NCBI GenBank assembly: GCA_014871385.1
Contig: CM026430.1
Span: forward strand, 5,500,630 to 5,564,629
Origin: Ceratodon purpureus
Taxonomy: Eukaryota > Streptophyta > Bryopsida > Pseudoditrichales > Ditrichaceae
Reading direction: 5' to 3'
DNA length: 64,000 nt
Made by a program: the position numbers and the translations under genes. Below, piece by piece: positions 4,600-60,965 of the stretch. A model generated the notes under the pieces. The model made no database searches. It was not told where the DNA came from and worked only from the letters and a program-made list of their open reading frames with translations. The stretch's first letter is position 1. Every line of letters starts with the position of its first letter.

Positions 4600-6841
4600 C
4601 TTTTCTAATAAACTTGCTAGTTTCTTTCGTTAGCAAATTTACTCATCATCATCAAGACTTAGGTAATTTATTTAATGTTTTTTTGTGCGATTTACCTAAT
4701 GATTCTTCAATATGAACTATATATTGTTGCTTTATTGATGTTGCTCTAATGTGCTTCACTTAATCTTTAAAGGTCTTTGACACCAAATTGTGGATGCGAC
4801 ACTTATGGACATGCTAATATAAGATTCAAAAATTTAAGTATTTCATGAGATTTTTACCATGCATATAATTTACCCATATCTTTCCAAATATTTTTTTTGC
4901 CCCGCTCCTTTTCTAGGCTGGAAATTTCTTCACCCTATTTGGTGTAGAGGTTGCAATGGAGGCATTATTCCTTACACTTTTGAGATCTTGCAGGTCAATA
5001 TCTATCGCTAGAAGCCACAAAATATCCATTCCTCTAGGCATGTTTTAGTCGCTACGTCTCTCAATTACTAGTGTATAAAGATGATCATGATTTTGGCAAG
5101 CTCTTTAAGATCAATTTTCAGCACTCTTTCAACGACATGGTCAAGAAGCATGAGACCAGCCGCCTAATTAAAGAAGAGGCTACTTGTTTCTCCAAACGTT
5201 TCTTTTCACAAACCTAATCACAATGGTACAACTCTCACACTCTTGAACCCTTTTCTTTAACCTTTCATTAGAACCTTTTTCCTTTGACATTTTTATGACC
5301 TTATCCAACTTTGTTTTGATGTCTTGAAGCATTGTTCAATTTGTTAAAGAAATTGAAGTTTTTGTGCAAAATATGTATATGAATTTTGCAAGATTTGTTC
5401 TAAAATTGGGCAAGCCACAACTACTTACAACATCGCATTTACCAGTCAAATAATCAATTTTGTAGTGGGTTAGCAATTTCAAAATAATGGGTTTATTTTT
5501 TTAACATTCGTGCGTATTTATGAAAGTTAGCAATTACAAAATATTTTCATCCAAAATATTTTCATCCATAAGAAAGTTCAACTTTTACAATATTCATCCT
5601 TGTCCATAATTTAGACATGCTTCAATGCAGCCGCCCAAAAAACACTGTAATAATAAATGTAGATTTTTGTAACTGTTCAAGTTTGATTTTTTGGACATTT
5701 GTAAAGGAAAATCTCAAAAACATATACATTGTCTTGCAATTGAAAGCAACTAGGTGGAAAAACGTCCGGAAATGGCTGTGTACAGGAGGTCTACCTGAAG
5801 GAATTGTTAATCAATGAATCGCGGAAGGCGTTAGCGTCAGCTGAGGTGCTGGAAGTCTATGCGTATGTGGCGAGGCCAGTTGTTGACGGCCGTGCAGAGG
5901 AACTTAGAAGCTCGGCTACTTTAAGTCTTAGCAAATTACGGTGGAGAGGATGTCTTAGTGCAATATGCAACCAATTTGAGAGGATATGGTGCTCACAATA
6001 TTATCATTCTAAGAAAGAATTTAGGGCTATTGGTGGAGGAGCGAAACAAAAATTATTGTTGGTGGATTTTCATAAAGATGGGAGATGAATAAAGTTGATT
6101 AAGTTGGGGTGTTGCTGAAAGTGTTGCTGAAACTAGTCTCTGCAACGACTAGAGCAGTTCCGCTCTAGTGTACCTAAAGCATGCGAATTAGCATCTTGCA
6201 ATTTGTGTTGCATTGATGTGGTTTATTTAATAATGTGATCTATCTAATATTTCTCTAATGTGCTTTATTTAATGTTGTTCCATAAAGTGTATCCTATCAT
6301 TTATGTTGTCTTGTGTAATTAAATTTAATGTTGATTTAATGTGATTAAATCATTGGCGCCTTTGCGACCACTACATAATCATTATGTTTGCAATTATAAA
6401 TCTATATAATAAAAAAATCAAATCTAAACATCACTTTCTCAAGGTATTATTGCAAGTACATAATCATTTTTTAAGTAATTAAGATTTTTAATGGAAAAAT
6501 ATAAATTTATACATCCATTCCACTATGGCATTTTTGTAATAATAAAGAACCAATAACCTCGAAGTCAATCACATTATAATAGCAATTTTAAAATTTTAAT
6601 CTTTCACGGTTCATTAAATATAAAGAATATTCTATAATAAACATGAATTCACAATCAAGTGTATATATCATGAAAATTCTAGAAAAAGTTATGAAATTAT
6701 TTTAATGTGCCAAAGTAATTCCATATTAATCATATTGTTTTTACATCCAAATTTTATATTTTATTAAAAAAAATGAAAAAGAAATATACATTTTATTATT
6801 TAAGATTCTCAAATATTTCTAAAGAAGTTATGAAGGTAACA
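4600..6841. other. AT-rich intergenic DNA, left flank of the large element
   Basis: No recognisable gene. A 94-codon ORF at 5804-6088 has no family I know, and its surroundings show no coding character. I do not call it a gene. Confidence 0.6.
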
Positions 6842-6885
6842 TAAGGGATATTTAGGTAATTCTGGACAAAAAAAAGTCCAGAATT
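6842..6885. repeat. Left terminal inverted repeat plus adjoining hairpin
   Basis: The 30-bp terminal repeat runs 6842-6871. Overlapping its inner end is a perfect 10-bp inverted repeat, AATTCTGGAC at 6858-6867 and GTCCAGAATT at 6876-6885, around eight A residues. The right end has the same 10-mer type as a direct repeat instead: GTCCATAATT at 22666 and 22685. Confidence 0.8.
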
Positions 6886-7429
6886 CAAAAATGACCAATG
6901 CGAACTCAGCGGACCGCCGATGGATGGAGACCACAGATGAACAGTGTCATTGTACATGAATACCACAGAATATGGAATGCAAAACTAGACATCGAGATGT
7001 GCATGGGCGGAATTTGCCAGTGATGGATATATGAACCCGAAGATTGCGACATATAATGCAGAATAAGAGTTACAATGAATACTTTAAAGAATATCATGTT
7101 GATTCAAGTAATGAAATGTACAATACAGAGTCGGCGACCCGCCGATAATAGAACCAGTAAACTAACTAGTCCCGTAGCACTTTGAGTCCTGAAGTCCTAC
7201 AACATTAAGTCTACACCCAGCACTATGTACCAAGTTCACGTAAATCCTATCACATTATAACCTACTCTGAAAACTATTTCCCTGAAAGCATAGCCGTAAG
7301 GTCAATGAGTAAATCATATATTTGAAGGCCGCACAAACGGGTCGACCAAGTCGGCGGGCAGCCGATGGAAGGTGTTCTGTTGGTCAGGAGGAGGGAAGAA
7401 GTGCAAATTGGAGGCGAAAAAGTCCGCCT

Positions 7430-8160
7430 AACTCAGTCCCAGCAAACTTCAGTCCAGTCCACTCGTGCACGTCCAAACTTTCTCGCAGCTTCAATTGCCC
7501 AGTGCACTTGCCCCGGCCTACACGCCTGCGCCATATACTCCGGTACAGATCCGAACTTGTGCAAGGGATAAACCAGAGGAAGGATATCTGTAGCAATGTT
7601 AGGTATAACGCCGTCATCGTTCGGAAAGTTTAGATGACCCTGAAAAGGCCAAGGAATGTAGCACATACAATTTGGTGTCCTCCTCAATGACCTCGGGTCA
7701 ACATCCACAAATAGCACCTGATCTAGTTTGCAGACGTTTCTAGACTATACCTTGGAGCAAACTTGACCTAACGTCTTATAACTCCAGGGGAAATTCTCCC
7801 GGTCGATAAGGTCACTTCTGCTATACACGAAGGACAACCTCTCCATTACACCGGCCGGCAGAATATGTGTGAGTAAAGGCTTCAGTTCTCCCAAGGGCAT
7901 CTTCGACCACAGACCAACATGGAAATGCAAGAAAAGCATGTCGAAAAGCTTCTTCAACCTGGGCGCTTTACTACATTCCGATGCGTATCCCATGCAAAAG
8001 AGCCTCTATCCCTGGGATCCACATAGCAGAGAAGGCCATTGACGCATAGGACAATACATTTCTTGACATGATGAGGGGGACCGTGAAAGGCATTTGAAAT
8101 AAAACGAGGAACCCTGAAGAATATGAAAATGCAATCAGTGAAGGAAATCAAAGAACAAGG
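7430..8160 (-). pseudogene. FCP1-like HAD phosphatase, copy 3 (degenerate)
   Basis: Minus-strand pieces give the order of an FCP1/NLI-interacting-factor HAD domain: HHVKKCIVLCVNGLLCYV (motif I position), RLKKLFDMLFLHFHVGLWSK (RPG...FxVxxWS segment), then VLFVDVDPRSLRRTPN and YIPWPF (motif IV region). The family nucleophile aspartate is a cysteine here (VLCVNG for VLDLNG), so catalysis is not expected. The frame shifts by one base near 7960, between KRPG and LKKLFDM, and breaks again near 7740. The copy lies between the palindromes at 7350 and 8418. It could instead be an intron-containing diverged paralogue, but the missing base inside a conserved motif favours a pseudogene. Confidence 0.6.
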
Positions 8161-8439
8161 ACGAAGTATATGAAAGAAATGGACTACATTCAAAGTCCGT
8201 CGATGCATTGAAGAAACCTCAAAGTAAATGTGCAGCAAGTGAAATGTCATGCAATGCATCTACAAAAAGAAGTACCCGAATTGCAAGCACTGGAAAACAA
8301 TTGTGTGGTGGCAGGGAAGTTCAGAAAGGGAACAGTCTTAGCGTATTAAACTAAAGAGTGCAGAGTATCATATGTGATTTCAAAAACTAGTGGCGCCGAT
8401 GAGTAGGCTCTAAATCAGTCGGCTGCCGCCGACGATGGA

Positions 8440-9508
8440 ACTAACCAGGGGCCTCCGGAGGACAAGGTAAATTCACAAACCAAGATCCAGGATCACCACG
8501 GACGTCAAAACCCGCATGCATGAGAAGGAATAACCTCCCTATACTTCTGTATTCGCGAGATTCTGGAAAAAGACGTGGCTTCCTCCCCACGCTAGAATTC
8601 CTCCTACAATACTCCTGGAGACATCCATCCAGACTGCTTAAGTCCTGCAAAGGAATGGAGTAAACTACCCTAGTTAAAATAGGGATTGGGGGTGGGCTGA
8701 GGTTCTTTGCACTCTGCAGAGTCCCAGAAAAAAGAATTAGGATGGACAACGCTAAATGGATGATTAAGTACATTCCTATAAGGGCGGTCGTCTACCAGTA
8801 GGGTATTCTGGACAGTGGCACCTGATCGAGCCAGTAAGCCTAGTGTCGCAGAAAAGTCTATCCAGACGCTTCAACAAGTACTCCCGTTTCCCATGCGGAT
8901 TAGTCCTTGTTGAGATATCACACCAGAATCCTGGAAGGCGTCTGTAATTGCTCCTGAGCAAGGGAATGAATGGCTAACAGCTTCTGGAAAGTGACGATCG
9001 AGATTCTTTTCAGAAACCGTGGACCAAAAGACTACCTCGAAATTCGCCGTGCAGAACTCTAGAATGAAAGAAGTCCTGGTCTAGCCCGGATATGAATTTT
9101 TGTCTTCAGGTCATCACCGATATACCCGTGGTGCTCTGCGATGAGCAACCCCTTAATGTCAAGGACAAGGTAGTATCGTTGGAGAGTGTACCTCAATATT
9201 ACGCGCAATAATATCAGTGCTGACACTGACGGAATCATCGCGCGGGGAACCGGTGCGCGGGGATCGCGACGTTGGTCTCGACGAACGAGGTGGAAGCCAT
9301 CGCACACCGGCCAGAGCTATGTGCAAGCAGACAGCGTCGGCGGCCCGCCGACTGGATAGTCGTACTCGTCCTCCCCATCACTTTCATTCTCGGCTTCCGC
9401 TCCCGGAGACTCTTCTCTGAGAGCATCACCATCAGGAGATGTTGGGTACTCCTCCAAGAGCATACTAAGAAGGGAAGGTCCCTGGTGCACTTTAATTTCA
9501 AGCGTCAT
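8440..9508 (-). pseudogene. FCP1-like HAD phosphatase, copy 2
   Basis: The likely old start is at 9508 (MTLEIKVHQGP), followed by an acidic stretch (AENESDGEDEYDY) into which a palindrome at 9336 is fused in frame (VGGPPT). The HAD parts follow: YYLVLDIKGLLIAEH, IRARPGLLSF, then after a one-base shift near 9060 LEFCTANFEVVFWSTVSEKN, then NTLLVDDRPYRNVLNHPF (motif IV with the VDD metal ligands). In the family this domain removes phosphate from the RNA polymerase II C-terminal domain or related substrates. The shift and a stop after PNPYFN near 8665 suggest it is broken. Confidence 0.65.
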
Positions 9509-9779
9509 CCTCCAGTGACTCCTGAAAAATGAAGGACAAATTCCAAGAAAATTCCGGTGATCAATCGCATGCTCACAATTCATACTTGCTCTAGTGTACA
9601 AATGGAGACACAATAAGACACCCACGACAGAATACACAGTCTCGACACTGAGTTCCGTTCTCATATATTTAAAAGGAGGAAAACTTTATTTACTGTAAAA
9701 GTCTAAATACATGAAGATCCCATCGGCTGTCAGCCGACTGAATCATGTGCATGCTCTCTAAAACAGTTTCCTACATCTA

Positions 9780-10420
9780 CTATGTTCTCTTTCGTTTAGG
9801 GCAATCTATGTGTGGAGAGAAGAGACTATAAGCTTCATCCCCCGGAAAAAGACGACGCTGACCGAATTCGGAATGTTTCTGGCAGTACTCGGGCACGGGG
9901 AGTTTGGATTCTTTCAAACTGGTAAGCCAAGGAATCAATTCTCCAAGCAGATAATTCCTCTTACTTTCCGACTCCTTCGACTCGAAGGTATATGGTGTAG
10001 GGTGCACAGCGTTCCAAGGAGTGTTTGCCACATTCTTATAAGGGGAATCATCAACCAAGAGAGTGTTAATTGAAGACGCCCCCGTCCCCTTCAGCCCGTC
10101 ATCGAGGTCAAAGAGGGTCTGGAGTCTCTTCAATAAAACTCCCTACTAGCCTTATGTACGCAAGTCTCGCAGAAACTCTGGTCGAACTTGTAGCGCACTT
10201 CGGCATCTAGACGAGGACAGCGCTGCTGCAAACGCTTTCCACAGAATCTGAAACCTCTTTTCCTGAACGCAGCTCCAGAAGACCACCTCGAAATTGTCCA
10301 GGCAGAACTCTAGGAACCTCTCTAAACCCGGTCTAAGCTTAGTATTCCACCTAGTACCCTGCTTCGTCTAGACTAATAGCAGGCCGTTAATATCCAGAAC
10401 AAGAAAGTACTTCAGCACTG
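9780..10420 (-). pseudogene. FCP1-like HAD phosphatase, copy 1
   Basis: The minus strand reads LKYFLVLDINGLLLV, an in-frame TAG, then LRPGLERFLEFCLDNFEVVF and WSCVQEKRFQILWKAF, a TAA near 10150, then in another frame NTLLVDDSPYKNVANTPWNA and HPTPYTF. These are HAD motifs I, II and IV in the right order. The second motif-I acid is asparagine (DxN), as in many plant HAD-like members. The copy lies between the palindromes at 9722 and 10602, directly downstream of the ParB-methylase gene and on the same strand. Two stops and a frame change make it a pseudogene. Confidence 0.65.
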
Positions 10421-10772
10421 GATCGTGTACCTGAGTACCCAGCCTGTTCCGGGGCTATGTGAAGTGGATTCAGAGGTGGAGGTCCCTGCTCCAGAACTGC
10501 ACTGGGTCTATCTTCGTGAAGTTTTCCATGGACTTCCTTGTCCGCGGACTCTGGAGTGACAGAAAACGAAGCAGAGGACAAACGTGACGGTTAGGATGAC
10601 GGTCGGCGGACAGCCGACTTGCAAGCAAAAAAAGGGAAAGCGTACAACTTGGCATTTACCGAAAATTTATTCATACTTGGCAGTACAAACATCTAACACA
10701 ATCCTAGAGCCCGATCACTACACTAAATTATCAATGCAGGCATTTAAAAGATGGACTGGGCCACCGCCTGAT

Positions 10773-13700
10773 TCACTGACCTCCACCTTTGTGCTTCTTC
10801 GGCCTAGGCTCCCGTTTGGATGGCCGCACAGGTGACAGAACGTCCTGTGGAGCGTCCACATTTTTGGGACTCATGTGCTCTTCCCCAGATGTGCCCTTCT
10901 TGGAGGAAGTCTTCTTCGAAGCAGCCTTCCGTTTGCCCTTCCCAGAGGACTCCTCCCCTTCCTGAACCCCTGAGGAATCACGGGATAAGTTACCCACAAG
11001 AGAGGAATCCTGCGCAGTACCATCGGTCTTACTTCTCTTCATTGATCGTGTATACACCAGAGGGTTCTCATCCGGGCCAATCATCCGAGTTGCGCCCTTC
11101 ACACCTTGCGTGACGAATGCGATTGACTTCCCTGTCAACTTGGTCTTGGCAGAGGGGTTAGATGAGGTTTGCTCGTCTGCCGTCGGCTGCCCGCCGACGG
11201 CAGCAGGAGGAACATGCCCTTCAATGCTCACTGCAGGCTCCTGGGTTGGCTTCTGGACACGGCGAACCACTTCATCGTCAGGCCTCGATGCTAGAGGAAC
11301 CTGCATCTTCTTTGGACGCCCCGCCTGGTCTAAATCACGTTCTGGCTCGGCGGGAGGAGTCCCCTGCTCTTGAAATGTAGGAGAAATAATACCGAAGCTC
11401 AGGGAGTCAGTTCCGGTCTCCCGTAGAACTTGCGACAGCGGTGGGTTCACGTAACGAGGATTCGATTCTTCCAGTGGTAATTCGTCGGGTTCTGGTTCAT
11501 AGTCTAATTCCTCCGTGTCTTGCTCCTCTACCTCTGCATCTCCACTTGGAATGCGAGCCTCAGCTTGGTCGTCCTCGTTTCTTGGCTGTTCCTCAGCATC
11601 TCCAGCTTCATCTTCAACGTCTGGGTCGGGTACATCTGGTGGCTCCTCGTCGACATCGTCGTCGGAGTCCAGAAAACTCTGTGAGCGAACCCCCGCAGTC
11701 TTCCCCGAACCCATACATCCACCCTTCCCGACCAAATGGGCCTCCTCCGCATTCACACCCAAGTCGGCAGCCGTGAGAGAGCCAGTCCTGCCTCTAGCAG
11801 AGGCGGGGACAGACGGCCCGGCCCCAGACTGCGTGGTCTGAACTGGAGCTTGGACGGGCACGTTATAGACGCCAGGAATGAACGTCATATTCCGAACCCG
11901 ACAGTGCGCTTCGTATCTCTCTTCCTCGGTACGCACGATCTCAATTACAGTCAAATGGTTTTTCTGCAGCAGAACAAGACGAAACGGTTAAGGACATCTT
12001 CTGCCCAAGAAACACGAAGGATTCAATCAGCGTCGGCTGCCAGCCGACGATCAGTGAGCAAACAGCGAAGGCACCAGAAGAGACTGCAGTAACTTACCAG
12101 AGCGAGGGCCGTGACGTTCCCCCCTCCCCAGCAATTGATCACCCGAACGTCCTCAATCTGCATCGCTTTCTCCAGAAGAGATTGGAGGAAAGAGAAACTA
12201 GCGTGGCAGTGACCATTTGACCAATCCTCCCCAAGATGATCTTCTCCTTCGTCCACATAGGGAGGAAGCGGACGTTTCAAACCAGTGAAGTCTGAGAAGG
12301 TATTCCATGCATCCCCGGGCGTTGTTCTTGGATACATAACGGACACATGAACCTTGGGTCTAGAGTCAATGAGAGAACTCCTTTGAAACCCGGCGGAACT
12401 ATCAGGGAAGTAGTGCATAGTATGAACCGTCCACGAATTACTCGTCAGCCTTGACACGCCTTGAAGAGTGTGATTACACTCAGCATCGAGTAGCCACAAG
12501 GATGGGGTGACAAGCTTATTCACCTTAATTGTATCTACCTCCCCATCCAGAATGACCTCCTCCTCCACCTCACGGTGAATCCTGTCAGCGACAGTTATAA
12601 CGTGTTGTTGTCGCATGTTAGGCATCTCCTTTCCCGCTGGATCGTAGCCAAAGACCACGAACATCTCATACTGCGCCTTGTTGAAGGAGAATGCTCCGCG
12701 AACGTCAAGAGCTGTGCACACTTCACCCAGGTCCTCTGCAATCCGAACATCGAACTGTACAGAAGACTGCGAAGACTGGTCCACATCCGACTTACAGTAT
12801 TTTTGCACAATGTCTTTGAAGAATTCTGGAGTTGGCCCTTGCAACGGCGTGAGCGGATGATTCCGTCCCTTAAGCCACTCCTTCCCCTCAGGACTATCTT
12901 CCAAGTCAGCCCGAATATTACTAACCATTGTATCATTGAACCCCTTCTCGACTTCAAGGGAATTCCAGTCATCCATGGTCCACTCAATCTGCTTCCCAGT
13001 CCCTGGTTTCCTCAGTGCAAAGCCCCTGTAAATACACATGAGCTCGTTCCGGACAATATACTCGAATTTCACACGCTTACACCAATTCTCCACTGATGTT
13101 CCATCCCGTTGAACCACCTCTTTCCCAGTGACCTTGACGTACACTTTAAGGTCCAGAATTTCCTTGGCCAGCCTCTTGCATTCGTGGTCCCGAAGACCGA
13201 TCACGTACTGCATGTCGTTGAATGTTATGTCCCGGCGGGCTGGCTTTGGGGGAAATCTTGGTTTCAGACCGTCCTCCCCGATGATCCTCCCCTCCTCCCA
13301 GGCGTCGAACACCAGTTGCCACTCGTTGTATGTTTCATCAGAAACGAAGACTAAGGGCAGCTTCAAGGTTTGGGACGTAGGGGTCTTTCCGAGAATCGGA
13401 CTGAGGTACTCCTTGCAGAACTCCTGCAAGGAAGAAAAAAATGACATTGATAAAAAAATCCCACTTCGGCAATACGGAGAACCACTTGAGCGTCGGCTGT
13501 CCGCCGACGACTTTCAACTACTTCGAAACAACAGGAAAAGAGGAAGATGTGAATTACCTTCCATGCGCTGTAGTCATCTTTCTTGTCGATCCTCCCCCGC
13601 TCGATCCATTTGGCGCGCATCTTCGCCAGCTGGGACCTGAAACTTACTTCGGCGACTTTATCCTTCACCTCGATGTTTAATGCGTTAGAGACCTTTATGA

Positions 13701-15561
13701 GGGTATCCTTGTCATCAGAATATACAGGAATGATATCGTGGTTAAGGTAATACTGCCGCATAGGCGAGTCCAGTGGTTCCTTCTCTCCCAGTTCTCGACA
13801 AGCCTCAAACGTGTGCTGGCCCCCAATTATGTACCAGTGGATGCCCTCATCTTCATACCAAGGTACCTCCTTCTGTGTGCCGTCATCCTGTCTAAGTGAA
13901 TACTTGATATTTAGGCCCATCCAAGGTCGAAGAAGTCCTTCCAAGCCTTTAAGCTTAACAATCTCGCCCGTCACTAGATCCTTTACTCTGGGGTCACCAC
14001 TCATAGGAAGGCAGTACAGCTCGGGCTTCTTCCGGATTGCTCCAAGTCCTTTGTAGAAAAGACTTATCTGATCCTGCCTCTTCCTGAATATCGCTCTGTA
14101 CTTGAATTCGTCGGGAGCTATGTGTATCCTGTAATATGGAATCTGACAAGGAAGGGCACGTTGCCCGTTGGGGAAGCAGTGCCCAAGTCCCTCCTCCAAC
14201 GTCTGGTACATGGCAAGGACGTCGGTGTCCTTTGTTTTGGAAGTGAGATTGTTTGCGAGCATGAGAGCTTCCGCCACGGTCTGCTTCTTCTCTTCCTTCT
14301 TCCCACCTTTCTTCTTCGCACCCTCGCCCTCAGCAGCCGCTGCCTTTCCCTTCTTCCTTCTCGATGACTCCCCTGTCGTCTGTGTCTCTCCGGTCTCGGG
14401 GGTGACTGTACCAGTGCCCGCTTCTACAGCAGACTTGCGGCCGCCTCTTTTCTTTGCTGCAGGCTTAACCAAGTTCTTCGTCCTCTCTACCATCACTTTG
14501 TCCCCGAGCGTATCAATCACGTCGAGTATCTGTTCAACAGCTATGTTCTCACCCCTGCCCCAAGTAGCCGCATCCTGTACTTCTTTAGAGCACAAGTCGT
14601 CCATGCACTTCTCAACCGGAATTTCAACCGCGAAGCAGTCCACTGGTTGACCCTCCGCGACAGGAACCGATGCAAACACCAAGAACACGTTGTCGTCATC
14701 GTCGCATTCCCTGGAACCAATAATCTCAAATCTTGGTCCACCTGCCATTTGCTTCTGACCTATTTTGGTCACGAAGCCCAGCGACATGGGAGTGTCACGC
14801 CAGGTGATGCCCCACTCCGTTATCTTCGAATCAGCGAGGAATGTCACCCTCGGTTTCAAGCCCCGTGCGAGTATTTCTACTTTAGGATCAACAACCTTGT
14901 CACAGAGCCAACGTAACCCATTCGGTTTTGCGGTGGAGTCGACCTTCGCCCTGCAAAATTAGAATCACAAGATTAGACCATCAGATTTTCACTCCATCGG
15001 CGGACAGCCGACGGGGGGAATAACCCATGTGAGAAAATAGAAAAATGAAGGACTCAGAAAGGGGTGGCGTCGGCGGTCAGCCGACGGAGGAACAACCCCA
15101 TGCGCCAGAACACAAAACATGAAGGGCAAAAGAAGGGGTCACGGCGTCGGCGGACAGCCGACGGGAGGGACAAACTCATGCAAGAAAACAGAAACACGAA
15201 GGACAAAAGCAGGGGTGGCGTCGGCGGACAGCCGACGGGAGGAACAAACTAATGCGAAAAGCAGAAACATGAAGGACAAAAGAAGGGGTGGCGTCGGCGG
15301 ACAGCCGACGGGAGGGACAAACCCAGGCGAGAAATTGAAAACTTGAAGGACTCAAGAAGGGGTGGCGTCGGCGGACAGCCGACGGGAGGGACAAACCCAG
15401 GCAAGAAATTGAAAACTTGAAGGACTCAAGAAGGGGAGCGTCGGCGGACAGCCGACGGGAGGGACAAACCCAGGCGAGAAATTGAAAACTTGAAAAACTC
15501 AAGAAGGGGAGCGTCGGCGGACAGCCGACTGGACAACTTACCCACTCTCGGAGGCTGCCAT
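10773..15561 (-). CDS. ParB-like / DNA-methyltransferase-like fusion protein of the element
   Basis: Model: exons 15542-15561, 13558-14950, 12098-13423 and 10773-11963, all GT-AG, 1309 codons without a break. Exon 1 supplies only MAASES plus part of a codon. Residues about 125-200 are low-complexity and basic (AAKKRGGRK, KKKGGKKEEKK). Near residues 375-470 a ParB/Srx-like fold is suggested by GIHWYIIGGQHTFEACREL followed by IIPVYSDDKDTLIKVSNALN, matching the ParB GxHR and NxxR regions. At 902-925, VINCWGGGNVTALAL joins across intron 3 to KNHLTVIEIVRTEEERYEAH, which resembles motif I of N4/N6 adenine methylases (FxGxGTT...xGIE). I cannot find the catalytic (D/N/S)PP(Y/W) motif, so activity is doubtful. 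The tail is acidic, then basic (KPKKHKGGG). ParB-methylase fusions are known in bacterial and phage genomes. The eukaryotic setting is the odd part. Fold assignments are my inference from short motifs. Confidence 0.72.
14951..15541 (-). repeat. Tandem palindrome array inside intron 1 of the ParB-methylase gene
   Basis: Eight palindromes start at 14996, 15068, 15145, 15219, 15292, 15366, 15439 and 15512, a period of 72-77 bp. Nearly all read CGTCGGCGGACAGCCGACG. The spacers are related to one another (GGAGGGACAAACCCAGGC, AAATTGAAAACTTGAAGGA), so this is a tandem repeat, not an array with unrelated spacers. The intron runs from the donor at 15541 (GTAAGT) to the acceptor at 14951. Confidence 0.9.
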
Positions 15562-16570
15562 GTCGTCGGCGGATGGCCTTTCACCGTCGGCGGATGATCC
15601 ACGAACAGCAGCCGACGCGCGCAGGCGAAGGAGCCGACGCCCTCAACCCTAGCAGCCGACGCAGAAAAACCTAGCAGCCGACGCGACCTCTGCGGAGCGC
15701 TGAGAAGAGGACAAAAGAGAGCTGAGAAAGAGAAGGCTGGAAATGAGGAGGAAATGTCGGGGGTGGCGGGTGTATACCCTGCAGACCCCCACCTCCCGAG
15801 ACTGAATCGTCACGCCCGATGGGTCATGACGTATGGCTATGTACATACCATCCATGCATGGATGGTCATCCCTAACATCCGTCCCATCACGCCACGTAGG
15901 ATGATGATGGGACGTCTTTAGACTTTTTTTCAATCCGTCACCTAGTCATGATGGCCTGCGCATGTGATATGACAGCTGCTCCAATCGCCACGTTCAAATT
16001 CGTAATAATGAACCAACATTGTTCTGTGACGGCGGGGGCATCTCGCCGCCATGATGGGATCTTGATCTGTCCAAGGCGCGCAAAATTGAATTCGATTCTG
16101 GCGCCAATTTGTACTCCTGGGAATTCATAACTAACCCCCCGTCAGATGCGCATACTTCATTCTATTTCTGTCATTGCACTTTCGATTCCCTCTGAGAGTG
16201 CTCCTGACGCACACGTTTCCTGAGAGGACCGTTTTTATTCCCGCATGTGCTTAACTGTCCCGCACCTTCTGTTGCCGTTTCTGTTCTCTTCGTCTATCGT
16301 TTCTAATTGGACGGTTGAGAGGAGTCTCTGATTGGACAGGTCAGGGACATCATACTGCTTCTCGACTCAGGTCCCCTGCAATTTCTGTCGGCGGACGTGT
16401 CCGTCATCGTCGGCGGATGCTATTTCTGTGCACACTCCGAGTCGTAGGATCCGCGTCGGCTGCCCGCCGAGTCGTCTTCGTTGTCGGCGGATACATTTTA
16501 CTCCGTCGGCGGGGACACTTCCCGTCGACCCTGTCGGCTGTCCGCCGACGAGGTCTTCATCTCTTATCCA
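15562..16570. promoter_or_regulatory. Divergent promoter region with phased palindrome half-sites
   Basis: This region separates the two divergent genes. On the left, AGCCGACGC half-sites start at 15610, 15632, 15654 and 15676, exactly 22 bp apart, and GTCGGCGGA half-sites start at 15565 and 15586. On the right, GTCGGCGGA starts at 16387 and 16409, again 22 bp apart, with others at 16493 and 16505, and fuller palindromes at 16455 and 16533. A 22-bp spacing is about two helical turns, so sites would face the same side of the DNA. No convincing TATA box was found. Promoter function is inferred from gene layout. Confidence 0.6.
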
Positions 16571-19500
16571 ATGGAAGTAGAGCCGATCCAGACGTTTCTA
16601 AGGAATGGCCGATCAGGGCGGTGGAAGGTTAAAAAGGGCGTTGTCGTGGCCCTTACTCATTCTGGGCTCTATTATGCAGGCAGGGCAGTGATCCAACGTG
16701 TTGTAGAATTTGATCCTATAGTGGTGGTGGTAAAAGTGATTGAGGTTTCAGACAGCATGGAAATGAATATACCATTTCCGGATGAGGGTGCGAAGTCCTT
16801 GAGCAACTGCTTAGGACAAATGATATTGTGGGAGGCGGCTGACCTCAGGCCTTTCGGAGAGGTGGAAGACGATGACATCAAGGCCGTCGGCTGCCCGCCG
16901 ACGGATGTTGAAGACGATGTCAAGCCCGTTCAAGAATTCCTGGACCTCGCAGAGCAGATGGAAGTTGCGCTCCTCGAGGAATCCGGAGGCTCAAAGCGTT
17001 GTGTTGCCGCTGGAGTCATTATGGAGTGCTCTCCTAAAGGAACGTGGGAGGGGTTCTTGATTCCTCACAGCTTCTTTCTAATAGTGAGAGTGTCGTCCGT
17101 CAATCCAGAATTCTCTGAAACACCTGCTTTCTGCGAGTTACCGGATGTGTTAACGATCGGGTGTGCTGTGGGGCGATTGGTACTTTGGAGTGGATACAAG
17201 GTCTGTCCACTTGTGAACGGCGCGTTGGCTGGCACATGTCCCGTCGGCTGCCCGCCGACGGAGCCTCACTTGGGGAACGAAGATGAAGAAATTGATGAAA
17301 GCAACTCCGCTCCGTCTGAGCAGGATCTGGGGACTAGGTCTCCAATGAATATCAGCAGTGACGACGATGTGTCTAATCAAGGGGAATCCGACGTAGAAAC
17401 AGATGATCATTGTTGGGGTCCGGATTCCGGGACCTCGGGTATTCCTTCCACTCCAGATGCTTCTTATCCTGACCGCCACCTCTGGAGAAATCGGTATGTC
17501 GAACTTCTTAATGATGATCTATCAGTCCGTGGTAGAGCAATGATTCAAGTATGTTTACCGGACGAGGCATGTGATGATGAAGTCCTAGGGGATACAGAGG
17601 TTGGGGTTCTCTTCGTCTCTGAAGACGATCATCTGCAGATGACAACTCTCAGATGGCGTCTGACTCACGCTCGGTTAGAAGGGGGTCACCTCCTCTCTGA
17701 TATAATTACTTACTGCTCCGAGAATTTAGCAGACGCCGACGCGGACGATGGTCTGGATGGTGTCCCGAAGAATGCCTATCGATCGGTGCGGAGGAAAGTC
17801 CGCGAAAAAGATGACGTCTCTTCCACTAAGCTTCGTCGAATGGTTGTCCCTGCTGAATGCCGCTTAGTGAGCTCAAAGCGCTGTTGCAAGGACCGATGTT
17901 GCCAGACTTTTAGATGGGAAGATACTGTGAGTATTCGGCGTAAATTTTACGCAACAACATTCCAGTCGAGGCGAGAGATGTCCTTCGCTGTGCAAGGGCA
18001 CTTACATACTGTACCCGGCAAGCGGAAGCTCTATGTTACTCTTGCGAACGTTGACGTATGTGAAGTGGCGTGGTATATCATTCACGGAGTATCGAAATCC
18101 GCGTACTACAGCTACAAGGCTGCGGCCCGAAGTGGTCGTGTCAGTGGGAGTCACGGAAATTCCGGTGTACATCGCCCCCAGATTCACACAATCCAGGCCC
18201 GCGCGACGTTGACCACTATCGTTAATGAGAATGCCGACCAAATGCCCAATGAGTTTCGGATGATTGGCAAGAAGAGAGTGGCCGCGCTCAAAGTACTCCC
18301 GTCTGCGATGAACTGGAACCACATGCGCGAAATGGCCAACGCCGTAAGTTCCTCCTCATCTTCTTTCACTTTGGATAGTTTACTGAATTGTAGTGATTAC
18401 TATCGTCGGCTGCCCGCCGACTGGATGACGAACTTCCCAACTGATCGACCTCACTGTGTGCTATTCAGGTCAATGAGTAGTGCAACGCGAAGCTGATTTC
18501 GCAGTCCTCCGTTAGTCGCATGAGGAAGGAGTACTTCCGCAACGTTGAGGTCAAGGCCGTAGGAAGTAATTTCTCCAAGTGCACTGAGTGTGACTTCCTC
18601 GTTGAACTCATTGCCAAGTATCCTAGAGGGTCGGACGAGTGGCAGAGCTTGACAGAGGATAGGACCAGGCATTTGAACTATCAGCGAGCTTGTCGCAACA
18701 TTTATTACGGATGGACAACCCAATCTATACAGAGTCCTACTGAGTTCCTATGCATCATACATGATAAGATGGACACATCGAAAACAGCGATCCCCCGCAT
18801 GCAACGTATCACGAAGGCTACGGCAGGGCTTGGTCAAATTCCGATTTCCTGTACTGGAATGCTGACTCACGGTCACGGAGATGGCGCCTACGCACACTAT
18901 GCAACTGCCCTGTGGCCAGGAGACCCAAATTTCACAATCTCCTCGTTGTGCAGGGTATTCCGTGCCTTGGAGAGACTACCTGTCCGGGAGTCAAAAGCAC
19001 TCTTCGAGGCACCGCCACAGAATGAATTCTTTGCAGCGCTAATGCATGGATCGTCACGTTGCATCCCCTCAATTCCACCTTCTAGAGATGAGCCACTCAC
19101 TCCACCTCTGCCTGGTAGGCCTGCTGTTCCTTTGCCGAAGAAGTTGTATCTGCAGCTTGACAATTCTGCGAAGGACAACAAGAACCGGTTTCTCCTAGCA
19201 TTCTGCTCGTTGCTGACGGCGAGGCGAATATTCAAGGAAGTTACAGTTGGTTTCCTGATTGTGGGACACACACATGAGGACATCGACGCCCACTTCAGTC
19301 ACCTATCGAAACTCATTAAGCGAAAGAACACATACTGCCTTGCAGACCTTATGAAGGCATTCATGGATTCTCAGAAGACAGTTGCCTTTATTCCAGAGGT
19401 TGTTCAGGAAGTGGCAGACTTCAAAAGTTATGTTGCTGATTTTCATCACGACGGAGGTAATGCGATAGAAGGTCACAGTGAAATGCATCTTTTTAAGTTC

Positions 19501-20481
19501 TATGTGGTGGAGGATGGGGAGGATGCGGGGTGGCCCGTAATGAGGTACAAGAAGCGTGCAACTGATCCGTCATGGCTTCCACCTGGCAAACCCGTGAAAA
19601 TGTGGAGGGCAGACAAAGAGGGTAAACCACGTTTGCCCGTCGGTGATCCCAAACCGGTTCCTCATAAGCACTTATGGGGTAGTGTTGAAGTCGATGAGGG
19701 CAAGAAGAACGCGGATAAAGAGGTGGCAAGGGCAGCGGAGTGTTCAGAGAAGAGAAATTTCATTAAAAGTGGATTATCTAAGTACATTGAGTACTGGAGA
19801 ACTGGCATGGCTCGGGATAAGAAATACGCACAAGACATGTTACCATATGTACTGTATTGGGAACGAATTTTAAAGGAGGTCAACGAGCCACTGCCCCCCA
19901 ATTCCGCCACCTTACAGGAAGGATTCTGGCCTATCTCAGACTGGAAGCGGGACCACGTCACCACATTCGATGCACAGGACGAATATATACCGGATCCGGA
20001 TATACGTCCCGGTGACGAGGATGAGGTGGAGCCTTATCCTTTCTGTGGTCCGAAAAACTCTAGGCCGAAGTCTGTGTTTAACCCATATCGTGACGTTTTA
20101 CGTGGCGATTGGGTTTTCTGTCGTCCGTGTAAGGAAGACCACCTACCCATTTGGATGGGTAGGGCGATAGAGCCTGTTATTACAGAGCCTGGTCCTAATT
20201 ACGGTAAGTTCAAGGTTGAATGGTGGACTCCGATGAAGGGCAAGAAGGAAGGTAAGAAGAAGGTTGCGAGAGAGTGCTGGACAAGACGGTGGGAAAGGGA
20301 GTTGACTCTTGCGGAGTGGGTGGAGTGTAAATCCGTTGTATACACTCATAGGACCAAGAAAACTACGCATGAGGGGCCCCCAAAGTCCCATCTAATACCC
20401 GAAGATGTTGTGATTGCTGCCATGGCAAACTTCGAATCGCATGGAATCTCGATGAACTGGAATGACGAGGAGGAAGACTAG
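16571..20481 (+). CDS. DUF7869-type transposase with N-terminal DUF8039-like domains
   Basis: Model: exons 16571-18343 and 18505-20481 (GT-AG, phase 0), 1249 aa. I chose ATG 16571 (MEVEPIQTFL, context CCAATGG) over 16481, because the extra 30 codons are palindrome-rich leader DNA. Residues about 15-95 (KKGVVVAL...IPFPDEGAKSLSNCLGQMIL) and 135-215 (CVAAGVIMEC...LTIGCAVGRLVLW) look like two DUF8039-like modules, known from plant transposon proteins. A cysteine cluster (KRCCKDRCCQTF) lies near 435-445 and VCEVAWYIIHGVSKSAYYSY near 495. Exon 2 has CTECDFL, then IIHDKMD (about 677-681), LYLQLDNSAKDNKNRF (about 806-821) and FLIVGHTHEDIDAHFS (about 841-856), the signature of this family. The three acidic positions are likely an RNase H-type catalytic triad (inference). 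Palindromes fall in frame at 16885 and 17242 (each giving VGCPPT), in the intron, and across the stop codon. Confidence 0.8.
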
Positions 20482-21131
20482 TCGGCTGCCCGCCGACGAT
20501 TGTGATCTTAGCTCTAGAAGATGTAGGTAGTGATGGTTTCCTCTGTAAACGTTATAGTTGAATATTGTAAACACTGTGATTCCCTCGAATAAGAATTGTA
20601 TTCTACCATTGACCCAATACTAGTCATGTATTACACTTTGTCTTCTATTTGTTGTTCTGATACCTTACTTTTCCTTCTTCGGTGGTCGTCGGCTGTCCGC
20701 CGATGCCTCTAACCATGTTAGATAAGCATCATGATCGGTGACTTTGTGAGGCTGGTCTATATTGTAGGGCCTGTGATTTTTACGGTGGACACTGTTACTC
20801 TAGTCGGCTGCCCGCCGACGCTTTCCACAACATTGGTAGAACCACTATGCGCTTTGAGAAACTGGGAAAAAATATTTATCCATTTCATTATATTCTTATC
20901 GGAGTACAACGGTAGTGTTCCGCCCTTTACATGTTACTTTGTATTGTGTATACATCAGAGATGCCACTACTCCTAAAGCCTCAGTAACAAATACTAACCA
21001 TGAATTCTACAACTATCCGAGTGTGTGAAGCAGCTCTATTGAAAACGAGCTGGACAGTTCTAACACACAGTAATTCACCCTAAAGCCAAAAAACCAAAAA
21101 GCTGCAGATGGTCGCCAACGCCATGAAGCGA
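20482..21131. other. 3' flank of the transposase gene with two more palindromes
   Basis: The region downstream of the transposase stop has palindromes at 20687 and 20803, in addition to the one that starts on the last base of the stop codon. No ORF of note. A polyadenylation region is likely here, but I see no decisive signal. Confidence 0.5.
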
Positions 21132-21653
21132 TCAGTCCTTCGCAGTAGACTTGGCTCGGACAGCACTACACCCAGTATCGACGGATGGATGCACGGATCC
21201 AAACGACGAATACGTGGACTGCGGGCTTGCGTTCCCTCCGCACCACTGATCTTGGCCAGAGCACCGACTTCCAGCACCCTCCAAGTTGTCGTATGCTTCG
21301 CCAACAATGCGGAGCCACCCTGCCGTTGACATGGTCTGCGTTGACACCTCCCCTGTGTGGCTGAAGTGAATGCTGCCAACACTCTCGGACTCCTCAGACT
21401 CCTCGGACTCCTCGAATGTCATCGGGAAGGCGATGCCGGAAGCGTCAGCGATCTCCATCAACTCTATGGTGTGAGCAATACTCCAAAACCACACCGCACC
21501 TGGCTGCAGAAGGCGTGTGATGTACTTGAAACGTGGAATGGCGGTGTTGCGAGAACGGGCGACCACCGCCCTATACCATGGCCGGAGCTCCTCGAGGTCA
21601 GCCGGTGACTCCTGATAACCTAGTGGTCTCACATTGCTACCACGCCTCACCAT
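21132..21653 (-). CDS. Unrecognised 173-aa ORF in the right arm of the element
   Basis: Intronless minus-strand ORF starting MVRRGSNVRPLGYQES. It has an acidic repeat EESEESEESES near residues 81-91 and no motif I recognise. It converges on the transposase gene. Length and low stop frequency are the only support, as no palindrome or splice structure helps. It could be a fragment of a longer decayed gene. No function is proposed. Confidence 0.35.
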   Translation of the reverse strand: MVRRGSNVRPLGYQESPADLEELRPWYRAVVARSRNTAIPRFKYITRLLQPGAVWFWSIAHTIELMEIADASGIAFPMTFEESEESEESESVGSIHFSHTGEVSTQTMSTAGWLRIVGEAYDNLEGAGSRCSGQDQWCGGNASPQSTYSSFGSVHPSVDTGCSAVRAKSTAKD

Positions 21654-21667
21654 AACGACAAAATATT

Positions 21668-21735
21668 GGACAATATGCGACTAACTTCTACAGTATGCGA
21701 CCTGCTTCTACAGTATGCGACCTTCTTCTACAGTG
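21668..21735. repeat. Short tandem repeat, about 3 x 20 bp
   Basis: Units of the form TATGCGACCTGCTTCTACAG occur three times in a row and end in a half palindrome (GGACAGCCGAC). Confidence 0.75.
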
Positions 21736-21830
21736 GACAGCCGACGAGTTCGTCTAGTAAACTGGTAAACGTTCTAGTAATCCACTTCTCTAGGGTTTTC
21801 TGGACGACTAATTGCCAACGTCGACCTAGT

Positions 21831-22130
21831 CTAGTAGCCCCTACTCCCCTACTCGGCTGGTAGCCGACTAGGACTAGCCTACTCATCATTTGCATTATTA
21901 GGACTAGGACTTATTTACTCATCATTAGGACTAGTAGCCCCTACTCTCCTACTCGGCTGGTAGCCGACTAGGACTAGCTTACTCATCATTTGCATCATTA
22001 GGACTAGGACTTATTTACTCATCATTAGGACTAGTAGCCCCTACTCTCCTACTCGGCTGATAGCCGACTAGGACTAGGTTACTCATCATTTTTATCACGA
22101 GGACTAGGACTTATTTCCTCATCATCTTTA
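21831..22130. repeat. Tandem repeat, 3 x 100 bp, each with a palindrome
   Basis: Units begin CTAGTAGCCCCTACTC at 21831, 21931 and 22031, a period of exactly 100 bp. Each contains a variant palindrome (TCGGCTGGTAGCCGA or TCGGCTGATAGCCGA) about 20 bp in. Near identity between copies indicates recent amplification. Confidence 0.88.
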
Positions 22131-22420
22131 TATGTATTTCAGATTCCAGAGGTCGTTTCAGTGAGGAAGAGGTTGGCTCTCCTAGTCGGCGGCCAGCCGA
22201 CTACAAAGGACTTCCATTTGTTGTGACCGTGAATACTGTTCATTCTAAACGACGACTCCGGAGTCCTCACAGACGGACACCCCAATGTGAGATTCCTGGC
22301 AGTCGTGTCCACTCAGCGGGTCGCCGACGATCTTCCCTTCACCCGCTTCACTTCACAGATCCACATTTTGCAGAGCAAGTATTTCCTTTTATTAGAACAG
22401 ATAGATTTCTAAGGATAGGG

Positions 22421-22468
22421 TTTCTAGGGTTTAGGGTTTCTAGGGTTTAGGGTTTCTAGGGTTTAGGG
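22421..22468. repeat. Telomere-like repeat, 3 x 16 bp
   Basis: Three perfect copies of TTTCTAGGGTTTAGGG, preceded by GGATAGGG. This is Arabidopsis-type telomeric sequence in a 16-bp higher-order unit, 213 bp inside the right terminal repeat. It is interstitial, not a chromosome end. Confidence 0.85.
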
Positions 22469-22680
22469 TTCTCAGTCAGCCACTCGCCGAGAGATTCGGC
22501 CATGACTGTGGGACTGGGATGTCCTCTATTCAACATTATAATAAATTCACTCAAATGATTTTATCCCTTGTAAACGGAATGCATTTTTTCATAAATATTT
22601 GACATCTTTGTCTTTAAATTTGAGGGATAACACATGAATTGGACGTCTACTGATGATGCAAAGTAGTCCATAATTGAGCG

Positions 22681-22710
22681 TTTTGTCCATAATTACTTAA
22701 ATACCCCTTA
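22681..22710. repeat. Right terminal inverted repeat
   Basis: The reverse complement begins TAAGGGGTATTTAAGTAATT and agrees with the left end at 27 of 30 positions. The 10-mer GTCCATAATT occurs twice here, 19 bp apart, as subterminal direct repeats that could serve as transposase sites. Confidence 0.8.
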
Positions 22711-59530: not shown

Positions 59531-60025
59531 TTATGTATCACCTTCTAGTGGTGAATATGGCCCAAGTGGCCTCCTTGATGGTAAATTTGAAATCAAATCT
59601 ACCATTGTTATCGAAGTATTCGACTCGTTTTCTAATTCCTTGACTACTTGCTTTACAACCCTTATAGATGGTCGAGATTTTGGATTTGGCAAACAACAAA
59701 TCATGCTTATATGTAAAAGATTCATAATCTTCTTTCCTTCTTCAAATTCTAGCAATTACTCACTCAATGGCATTGATGATGTAAAACTAGCGCAAAGCTC
59801 AAGAGATTCATTTGAACCATGTCTATAACATCAATTTCTTGTAGGCATTAAATTGCCATTAGCGTTTTTTGAATGGTATAAATCTTGAGTAGGTAGATTG
59901 TAGTCAACGACACTCAAGATATTGTTTGCCTCATATGCACGCCATACACTTTGTAACAAAAATATATCTTCGTCTACACCGTCAGCAATATAAGCTTGTT
60001 TGCACGGATAGCGAGTGGCTTCCAA
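59531..60025 (-). pseudogene. Receptor-like kinase C-terminal fragment (lectin-RLK type)
   Basis: The minus strand gives DEDIFLLQSVWRAYEANNIL with SVVDYNLP (kinase subdomain X region), then, after a frame change, EGKKIMNLLHISMICCLPNP with KSRPSIRVVKQV (subdomain XI, the conserved arginine in SRPS). These resemble the end of L-type lectin receptor kinases. The kinase core, membrane segment and ectodomain are absent, and the piece ends against a transposase relic on the other strand. It is a decayed 3' remnant. Confidence 0.65.
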
Positions 60026-60029
60026 AAGA

Positions 60030-60591
60030 GAATGGTGGTATCAAGTTGTAGACTGAGTTAAGTGACGGCAGGCCAAGCTTGCCTTTAGAGGCTCCAGATG
60101 CTTTACCAGCGCAAAGCATGAAGAATAAAGAGGAAATCATTAGGGGTATTGGAGGATTCATCAACCATTGGGATACTATGGCAAATGAAGATTTGTCGAG
60201 GGAGTATCGAAGAAGGAATGAAGGCATATCACGATATTGGAAGGGGGTGCATCAAGCCCTATCTCAAGATATCATTTTGCCTTCAGTTTTAAGGGATGGA
60301 TTCTGGCCACGATCTTGGTTCTCTCCAGCTCTAGAGGACAAATACCTTGATGACGGCACGATGCGGGATGCATTTGCTAGAGATGAGCCATTCATTGGGC
60401 GGCATCGTGATCGGCCAAATCCTTCGTTCCGAGTGGCTCGGGATGTATACGAGGGATATTTTCTTAGTGTACGGCCTGCTGTTGACGATTCGCGACCGTT
60501 TTGGGTAGCAAGGGCTATGTCAAACCTATTTGATGACCCTGTTAATCATCCAAATTGTATTAAAGTCCAATACTGGAAACCGTTGTATTGA
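60030..60591 (+). pseudogene. DUF7869-type transposase, C-terminal remnant
   Basis: The frame contains one early stop (GIKL then TAG near 60050), then reads open to the stop at 60591. The order RYWKGVHQAL, VLRDGFWPRSWF, RVARDVYEGYFLSVRP, FWVARAMSNL and VQYWKPLY parallels the C-terminus of the transposase at 16571-20481 (YWERILKEV, LQEGFWPISDW, DVLRGDWVFCRP, IWMGRAIEP, VEWWTPMKG). The catalytic part is missing. No GTCGGC palindromes accompany it, so it comes from a different lineage of the same family. Confidence 0.7.
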
Positions 60592-60965
60592 CAAGTTAGC
60601 ATGTGAGGATAGGTAGATACATCTACCACTACTATTATGATGTTTTATATAGTTAATAGTGCTGTCATTTAGCTTGATGTGAGCTAAATACTTAGATATT
60701 GTCCTAGTATCGACAAGGTAGCATGTGAGGATAGGTAGATACTGCTGCCACTATTGTTGTGAGGTTTTATAAAATTAATGTGTCCATGTATTTGGCTTGA
60801 TGTGAGCTGAATACTTAGGTTGTGTTAACCGTATCAACAAGTTAGCATATGAGGATAGGGAGATACAGTATACTGCTGCCACTACTGTTGTGAGGTTTTA
60901 TAAAATTTAATGTGTCCATCTATTTGGCTTGGTGTGAGCTAAATACTCAGATGGTGTATTAGTAC
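60591..60965. repeat. Tandem repeat, three copies of about 122-124 bp
   Basis: Units begin ACAAGTTAGCATGTGAGGAT (with variants) at 60591, 60713 and 60837, immediately after the stop of the transposase remnant. They end with GCTTGATGTGAGCTAAATAC-type sequence. They may be the subterminal repeats of that element. A fourth, weaker partial unit may follow near 60985. Confidence 0.8.

Follow-up and report, generated by a model that had tools for sequence, protein, structure and literature searches.

Family-specific palindromes as candidate self-recognition sites in a DUF7869 DNA transposon of the moss Ceratodon purpureus

As far as a limited literature search can tell, the best-known example of sequence-specific self-recognition among transposons comes from VANDAL elements. 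The VANC proteins of VANDAL elements in Arabidopsis are reported to be anti-silencing proteins (PMC5735166, PMC10398659), and VANC target motifs are reported to lie in introns, in intergenic and terminal noncoding DNA and in tandem repeats, with motifs that differ between related families and with a transposase that is more conserved than the VANC reader (PMC5735166). Here we describe a DNA transposon of the moss Ceratodon purpureus that encodes a presumed transposase with a DUF7869 domain and lies in a 64,000-nucleotide stretch of contig CM026430.1 (the window), in a genome of 362 Mb. This element carries many copies of the palindrome GTCGGC-N5-GCCGAC, and the sequence comparisons below suggest that these palindromes are probably family-specific self-recognition sites read by a protein that the element itself encodes.

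Compared with VANDAL, the DUF7869 families of this moss likewise have a family-specific repeated motif in noncoding DNA, often in tandem, and in three of them a fast-diverging protein is encoded beside a better conserved DUF7869 catalytic exon. They differ in that the moss motif is a palindrome of 17 to 25 bp and the VANDAL motif an oriented 8- to 9-mer. The DUF7869 transposon group is unrelated to VANDAL, which has a Mutator-type transposase, and no Pfam match to the VANC-type domains DUF1985 or DUF287 was found in the element open reading frames (ORFs) tested. CACTA (En/Spm) elements have many copies of a short, element-specific subterminal motif that is bound by the element protein TNPA. 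The moss element likewise carries an element-specific short motif in many copies, with a binder that is here a candidate, but its sites span the whole element, its ends are AAGGG rather than CACTA, and its target duplication is 4 bp rather than 3 bp. Bacterial parS sites are palindromes of similar length. REP palindromes are reportedly linked to a transposase-related protein, TnpA-REP, and occur in high copy number across bacterial genomes; the link to such a protein is shared with the moss palindromes, which differ in being clustered in the element.

A palindrome confined to one transposon

The window contains 28 copies of GTCGGC-N5-GCCGAC when up to one mismatch is allowed, 19 of them exact, and all of these sites are within positions 7130 to 22201 (Table 1); the remaining 48 kb contains none at this stringency. 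A shuffle control, counting up to two mismatches, gave a mean of 0.61 sites and a maximum of 4, and the two sites that fall outside the element at two mismatches (3625 and 26592) are at chance level. The element, which we call transposon family A, is 15,869 bp long (6842 to 22710) and has inverted ends. A first-pass annotation of this DNA had reported about 25 copies confined to an element and present in its introns, exons, intergenic gaps and arrays, all of which agrees with our count, gene models and site map. The end repeats at 6906 and 22329 that it took as the limits of the element are degenerate sites just inside the true ends.

The spacing of the arms is strict: 28 TCGGC..GCCGA pairs have a spacing of 5, and any other spacing from 0 to 19 has at most 2. 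The center is KGNCM in 24 of 28 sites, which means that most sites consist of one GTCGGCTG half and one GTCGGCGG half and are hence directional. Sites are spread along the whole element, up to ~8 kb from an end. The element has two divergent genes, one for a ParB-like/methyltransferase-like protein and one for the DUF7869 protein, and each of the four introns of family A contains at least one site; the first intron of the ParB-like gene holds eight. That gene has no sites in its exons 2 and 3, and DUF7869 exon 2 contains only the one that overlaps its stop codon. Between the two genes (15562 to 16570) there are 13 half-site hexamers, against 0.74 expected, and 10 of the 13 lie outside full sites.

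A genome-wide count, which the first-pass annotation had suggested as a check of enrichment, gave 2,858 exact palindromes versus 3 for a reversed-pattern control. Of the 50 distinct places that head the listing, all of them on contig C1, 49 fall into three element-sized clusters and one is solitary; the DNA surrounding the solitary place has no match over 100 bp to the window.

Alignment of element copies, also suggested in that annotation, shows that the palindromes are kept while their flanks drift. Three whole copies differ at 3 of 924 arm bases, at 5 of 385 center bases, and at 645 of 45,646 bases elsewhere. In 29 copies compared over the right-hand 5.3 kb, which contains 8 sites, 12 of 2,418 arm bases are changed (0.5%), compared with 807 of 43,837 bases (1.8%) in other noncoding DNA, 10 of 1,007 bases in the centers, and 402 of 96,251 bases in coding DNA; the arms are conserved about as well as coding DNA. 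In the same comparison, 4 of 1,267 CpG bases are changed within sites versus 99 of 3,832 in other noncoding DNA. The annotation had read the fixed arms as what is expected of a protein-binding site under selection. Clustering and arm conservation support the selected site, and we infer from these patterns that a protein may bind it.

Three of the family A sites (11182, 16886, and 17243) are wholly exonic, and all three are in one reading frame and encode VG[CG][PQ]PT. Among 165 protein relatives, translated palindromes were found seven times in frame 1 (0.025 expected), seven times in frame 3 (0.69 expected), and three times in frame 2 (0.74 expected, which is inside the shuffle range); those in frame 1 come from Ceratodon (four), Physcomitrium (two) and one further source. 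A coding peptide was rejected as an explanation for the whole set, because the majority of sites fall in introns, flank the genes or lie where no gene is modeled.

Different palindromes in related families

The same genome contains five more DUF7869 families (B to F), each with its own repeated palindrome. Families B and C were located with a diverged query; another query (P0005) reached only family A in 67 scored matches. The DUF7869 exon of A shares ~49% identity with that of family B and ~48% with that of family C. The palindrome of B is CATCGGGRGATCYCCCGATG, with 30 sites in 18 kb when up to 3 mismatches are allowed, and that of C is GATCGTAGGATCCTACGATC, with 39 sites when up to 4 are allowed. 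Exact counts across the genome are 403 for the B motif (CATCGGG-N6-CCCGATG) and 609 for the C motif, with 0 for both controls. At up to two mismatches, the A motif has 29, 0, and 0 matches on the DNA of A, B, and C, respectively, the B motif has 0, 30, and 0, and the C motif has 0, 0, and 35.

Gene order in B and C is as in A: one strand encodes the ParB-like protein, in which GGQH stands in the place of the GERR of ParB, together with a methyltransferase-like exon, and the opposite strand carries the DUF7869 gene; the GGQH exon of the C copy is interrupted by a TGA. Equivalent slots are occupied in all three families: intron 2, the DUF7869 intron, the 5' region of the ParB-like gene (upstream of the GGQH exon), and the DNA 3' of the DUF7869 gene, where the slots in B and C are delimited by homology limits rather than by splice sites. 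The intron-2 gap has 1, 3, and 4 sites in A, B, and C, respectively, and the DUF7869 intron has 1, 1, and 4. Conserved exons contain 3 of 28 sites in A, 1 of 30 in B, and 0 of 39 in C (4 of 97). Selfish palindromic repeats spreading on their own would be in keeping with arrays that expand by tandem duplication and with the one solitary place on C1, but the other 49 places are clustered, the rest of the window is free of the palindrome at up to one mismatch, and the equivalent slots are filled by different sequences in different families. We regard such selfish spread as highly improbable.

Changes within the arms bear on whether the palindrome is read as RNA or as DNA. A role as RNA hairpins in transcripts, for instance during splicing, would suit the presence of at least one site in each of the four family A introns. 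However, of 70 changed arm pairs in families A to C, only 1 shows a two-sided compensatory change (0 in A, 0 in B, and 1 in C), 26 are still pairing, and 43 are broken (6 in A, 23 in B, and 14 in C), and sites also occur beyond the gene models. A single compensatory change in 70 fits a protein reading DNA better than an RNA hairpin, and hairpins, for which covariation is lacking, were set aside as very unlikely.

In families D, E, and F, which were located by DUF7869 protein search, arrays of palindromes lie just upstream of the DUF7869 gene (10 sites in D and 30 in E at up to 4 mismatches, and 8 in F), and E has 7 further degenerate sites downstream of this gene. This is how subterminal sites would lie if, like the CACTA motifs, the palindromes served solely to bind transposase for excision and insertion, and if the scatter in the larger families were a by-product of growth and tandem duplication. 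In contrast, the A sites are found throughout the element, in all four introns and as far as ~8 kb from an end, and those of B and C are distributed alike. In addition, one end of C is similar to the left end of A, yet the interior palindromes of the two families differ; no end of this kind was found in the D to F sequence examined, and in B, D, E, and F the sequence examined revealed no element ends. Because of this combination, seen at one end of one C copy, the interior palindromes resemble a second code. We consider an exclusive role as transposase-binding sites doubtful and favor self-recognition sites.

A second DUF7869 fragment (57% identical to P0051) is present in the window at 59986 to 60960 and is followed by a tandem repeat of ~122 to 132 bp, whose unit contains a palindrome like that of family E (60669, 60792, and 60924; 2 to 4 mismatches).

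Candidate readers and their possible effect

One motif per family, equivalent noncoding slots, conserved arms and a single compensatory change in 70 are together the behavior expected of binding sites for a self-encoded, family-specific protein. Such a protein would, as a dimer, read the palindrome across noncoding DNA, that is, in introns, in the shared promoter region, in gene flanks, and near the ends. It would mark chiefly the elements of its own family, because the families bear different palindromes. Its main effect would be to keep the noncoding DNA of the element active or unsilenced, as VANC does for VANDAL, and it might additionally contribute to holding the ends together for transposition. 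As a rough estimate, anti-silencing or activation has close to an even chance of being the function, a role in a transposition complex is a substantial possibility, and some other function is rather unlikely.

Several observations weigh against family-specific self-recognition. Families B to F were all found through DUF7869, so the gene is present in all six families by construction, and one copy per family was examined in B to F. Specificity is not absolute at 3 mismatches, where the A motif matches B once and the E motif matches F eight times, the latter because E and F have outer arms in common. One B site lies in DUF7869 exon 2, and the three wholly exonic A sites, which share a frame, could be under peptide constraint. 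The D sequence examined has a 5' array alone, which equally fits plain subterminal transposase sites. Finally, the 29 copies used to measure conservation are closely related, and their substitutions are not independent events.

Two proteins of the element are candidates for the reader. The first-pass annotation had named the ParB-like protein as the natural candidate binder, and a reading of the palindromes as parS-like sites, on which this protein would spread or pair element copies, can draw on the placement of eight sites in intron 1 of its gene and of one each in introns 2 and 3. It can also draw on divergence, in that identity between families A to C is 21 to 28% for the GGQH protein, compared with 48 to 62% for the DUF7869 catalytic exon and 37 to 46% for the first DUF7869 exon over its main aligned part, and a coevolving reader would be expected to diverge fastest. 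However, neither Pfam nor NCBIfam has a ParB domain match in this protein. Against seven phage ParB-type proteins, hhalign places GGQH opposite GERR, as expected, with a probability of only 0.45% and an E value of 0.13; the reversed control gave 0.07%. Moreover, D to F have arrays but no ParB-like gene that could be detected in 6.5 kb upstream of each DUF7869 gene and 2 kb downstream in D and E (best E value, 0.056; the E sequence includes 1.6 kb of N), and the same queries detect the gene of B in C at 2e-41. This makes the ParB-like protein doubtful as the reader, and its designation as the natural binder is not supported in that form; parS-like sites seem to us distinctly improbable. Since arrays are also present where a ParB-like gene was not found, we slightly prefer as the reader the DUF7869 protein, which differs between families in its N-terminal part. 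The fast-diverging ParB-like protein would be the second candidate in families A to C.

By analogy with VANDAL, we tentatively propose, as an idea with somewhat less than an even chance of being right, that a large group of bryophyte DNA transposons independently evolved a VANC-like system, in which each family would have a private palindrome in its noncoding slots and its own fast-evolving reader to remove or block silencing, with new families arising when reader and palindrome change together. If this is true, it would add a second, unrelated group to the known cases. This group, with numerous nearly identical copies and with six repeated motifs within a single small plant genome, would allow tests of how dozens of dispersed sites evolve in concert with the protein that binds them, and of whether self-recognition lets moss transposons evade methylation. 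The palindromes also provide a simple key for assigning DUF7869 elements to families.

Features, ends and copies of the element

Table 1. Coordinates of family A features in the window
Feature	Position	Strand	Remarks
Whole transposon, family A	6842-22710	.	Limits set by alignment to other genome copies
Left terminal inverted repeat	6842-6871	+	30 nt, 90% complementary to right end
Inner hairpin CTGGAC-N8-GTCCAG at left end	6862-6881		
Degenerate site near left end (CTCAGCGGACCGCCGAT)	6905-6921	+	Sequence inspection
Palindrome	7130-7146	.	One mismatch
Palindrome	7350-7366	.	One mismatch
Palindrome	9336-9352	.	Exact
Palindrome	9722-9738	.	One mismatch
Palindrome	10602-10618	.	Exact
ParB-like/methyltransferase-like gene	10773-15561	-	Exons 15561-15542, 14950-13558, 13423-12098, 11963-10773; 1309 aa, no internal stop
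Palindrome in exon 4 of ParB-like gene (VGGQPT)	11182-11198	.	Exact
Palindrome in intron 3 of ParB-like gene	12032-12048	.	Exact
Palindrome in intron 2 of ParB-like gene	13492-13508	.	Exact
Eight palindromes arrayed at intervals of 73-77 bp within intron 1 of ParB-like gene	14996-15529	.	Number varies among element copies
Six unpaired half-sites near start of ParB-like gene	15565-15682	.	
Four unpaired half-sites near start of DUF7869 gene	16387-16510	.	
Palindrome upstream of DUF7869 gene	16455-16471	.	One mismatch
Palindrome upstream of DUF7869 gene	16533-16549	.	Exact
DUF7869 (PF25273) gene, presumed transposase	16571-20481	+	Exons 16571-18343, 18469-20481; in-frame TAG at 18478-18480 in window copy
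Palindrome in DUF7869 exon 1 (VGCPPT)	16886-16902	.	Exact
Palindrome in DUF7869 exon 1 (VGCPPT)	17243-17259	.	Exact
Palindrome in DUF7869 intron	18405-18421	.	Exact
Palindrome covering last base of DUF7869 stop codon	20481-20497	.	Exact
Palindrome 3' of DUF7869 gene	20688-20704	.	One mismatch
Palindrome 3' of DUF7869 gene	20803-20819	.	Exact
173-aa ORF	21132-21653	-	Relatives in B (90% over 173 aa) and C (78% over 107 aa)
Three palindromes arrayed at intervals of 100 bp	21852-22068	.	One mismatch each
Palindrome near right end	22185-22201	.	Exact
Degenerate site near right end (CTCAGCGGGTCGCCGAC)	22312-22328	+	Two mismatches
Right terminal inverted repeat	22681-22710	-	Complementarity to left end and copy alignment

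The splice model of the ParB-like gene was drawn by hand, and its exons 2 and 3 are backed by relatives. Besides GGQH, the protein has a degenerate methyltransferase-like motif that closes exon 3 (12098 to 13423) and reads NCWGGGNV in A, NGGAHF in B, and IGGGPS in C; these motifs were judged by eye. The DUF7869 protein gave the one significant Pfam match among the ORFs tested (PF25273, 150.7 bits versus a curated cutoff of 26), and conserved D, N, and H residues are visible in it. Its open frame has 666 residues in the window and in one other copy and 675 to 678 in 66 of the 68 copies scored (the top-ranking ones among 1,298 candidates). Among named proteins, the nearest comes from Ceratodon purpureus (94% identity over 55% of the query), and another Ceratodon relative has a U-chromosome locus tag. 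The literature searched has no mention of DUF7869. Three protein scans of IMG/VR confirmed no viral relatives, and a scan for the palindrome pattern gave a baseline of 54 stretches with one site each, two of them from a single contig. A query with the complete spliced ParB-like protein had no hit among 7,986 candidates scored. Solved structures yielded no match, and PHROGs only weak, scattered ones.

The 173-aa ORF is kept at 90% in B and 78% in C, although the DUF7869 proteins of these families are only ~48 to 49% identical to that of A; its orientation relative to the DUF7869 gene is reversed in B and C, and a stretch resembling it (EELRPW) lies upstream in F. Its similarity across families would reflect either exchange or strong constraint.

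Alignment of two further copies (96 to 98.6% identical) begins and ends at most one base from 6842 and 22710. A third copy (98.4 to 98.7%) also stops at 22710 and has nearly 2 kb of left flank in common with the window copy, up to the edge of the sequence compared. The terminal inverted repeats are 30 bp long and 90% complementary, left versus right. With the element taken as AAGGG to CCCTT and the flanks judged by eye, three other copies are surrounded by 4-bp target duplications (TTAT, ATAA, and ACAT). The window copy is flanked by ACAT on one side and AGTC on the other, which is no target duplication, and since its left flank is also that of the third copy, it looks rearranged. The left flank of the window copy (4858 to 6841) matches that of the copy at 5.72 to 5.73 Mb of C1 and the right flanks are unlike, as in a duplicated or recombined copy. 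Telomere-like repeats (TAGGGTTTCTAGGGTT units) lie at 22416 to 22470, within the right end of the element.

The 68 DUF7869 copies scored as the best of 1,298 are 98 to 100% identical to one another, which suggests that family A was probably mobile recently. The largest contig (C6) holds many family A and B copies, and most of the listed B copies that contain stop codons are on it, as might be expected of a nonrecombining sex chromosome.

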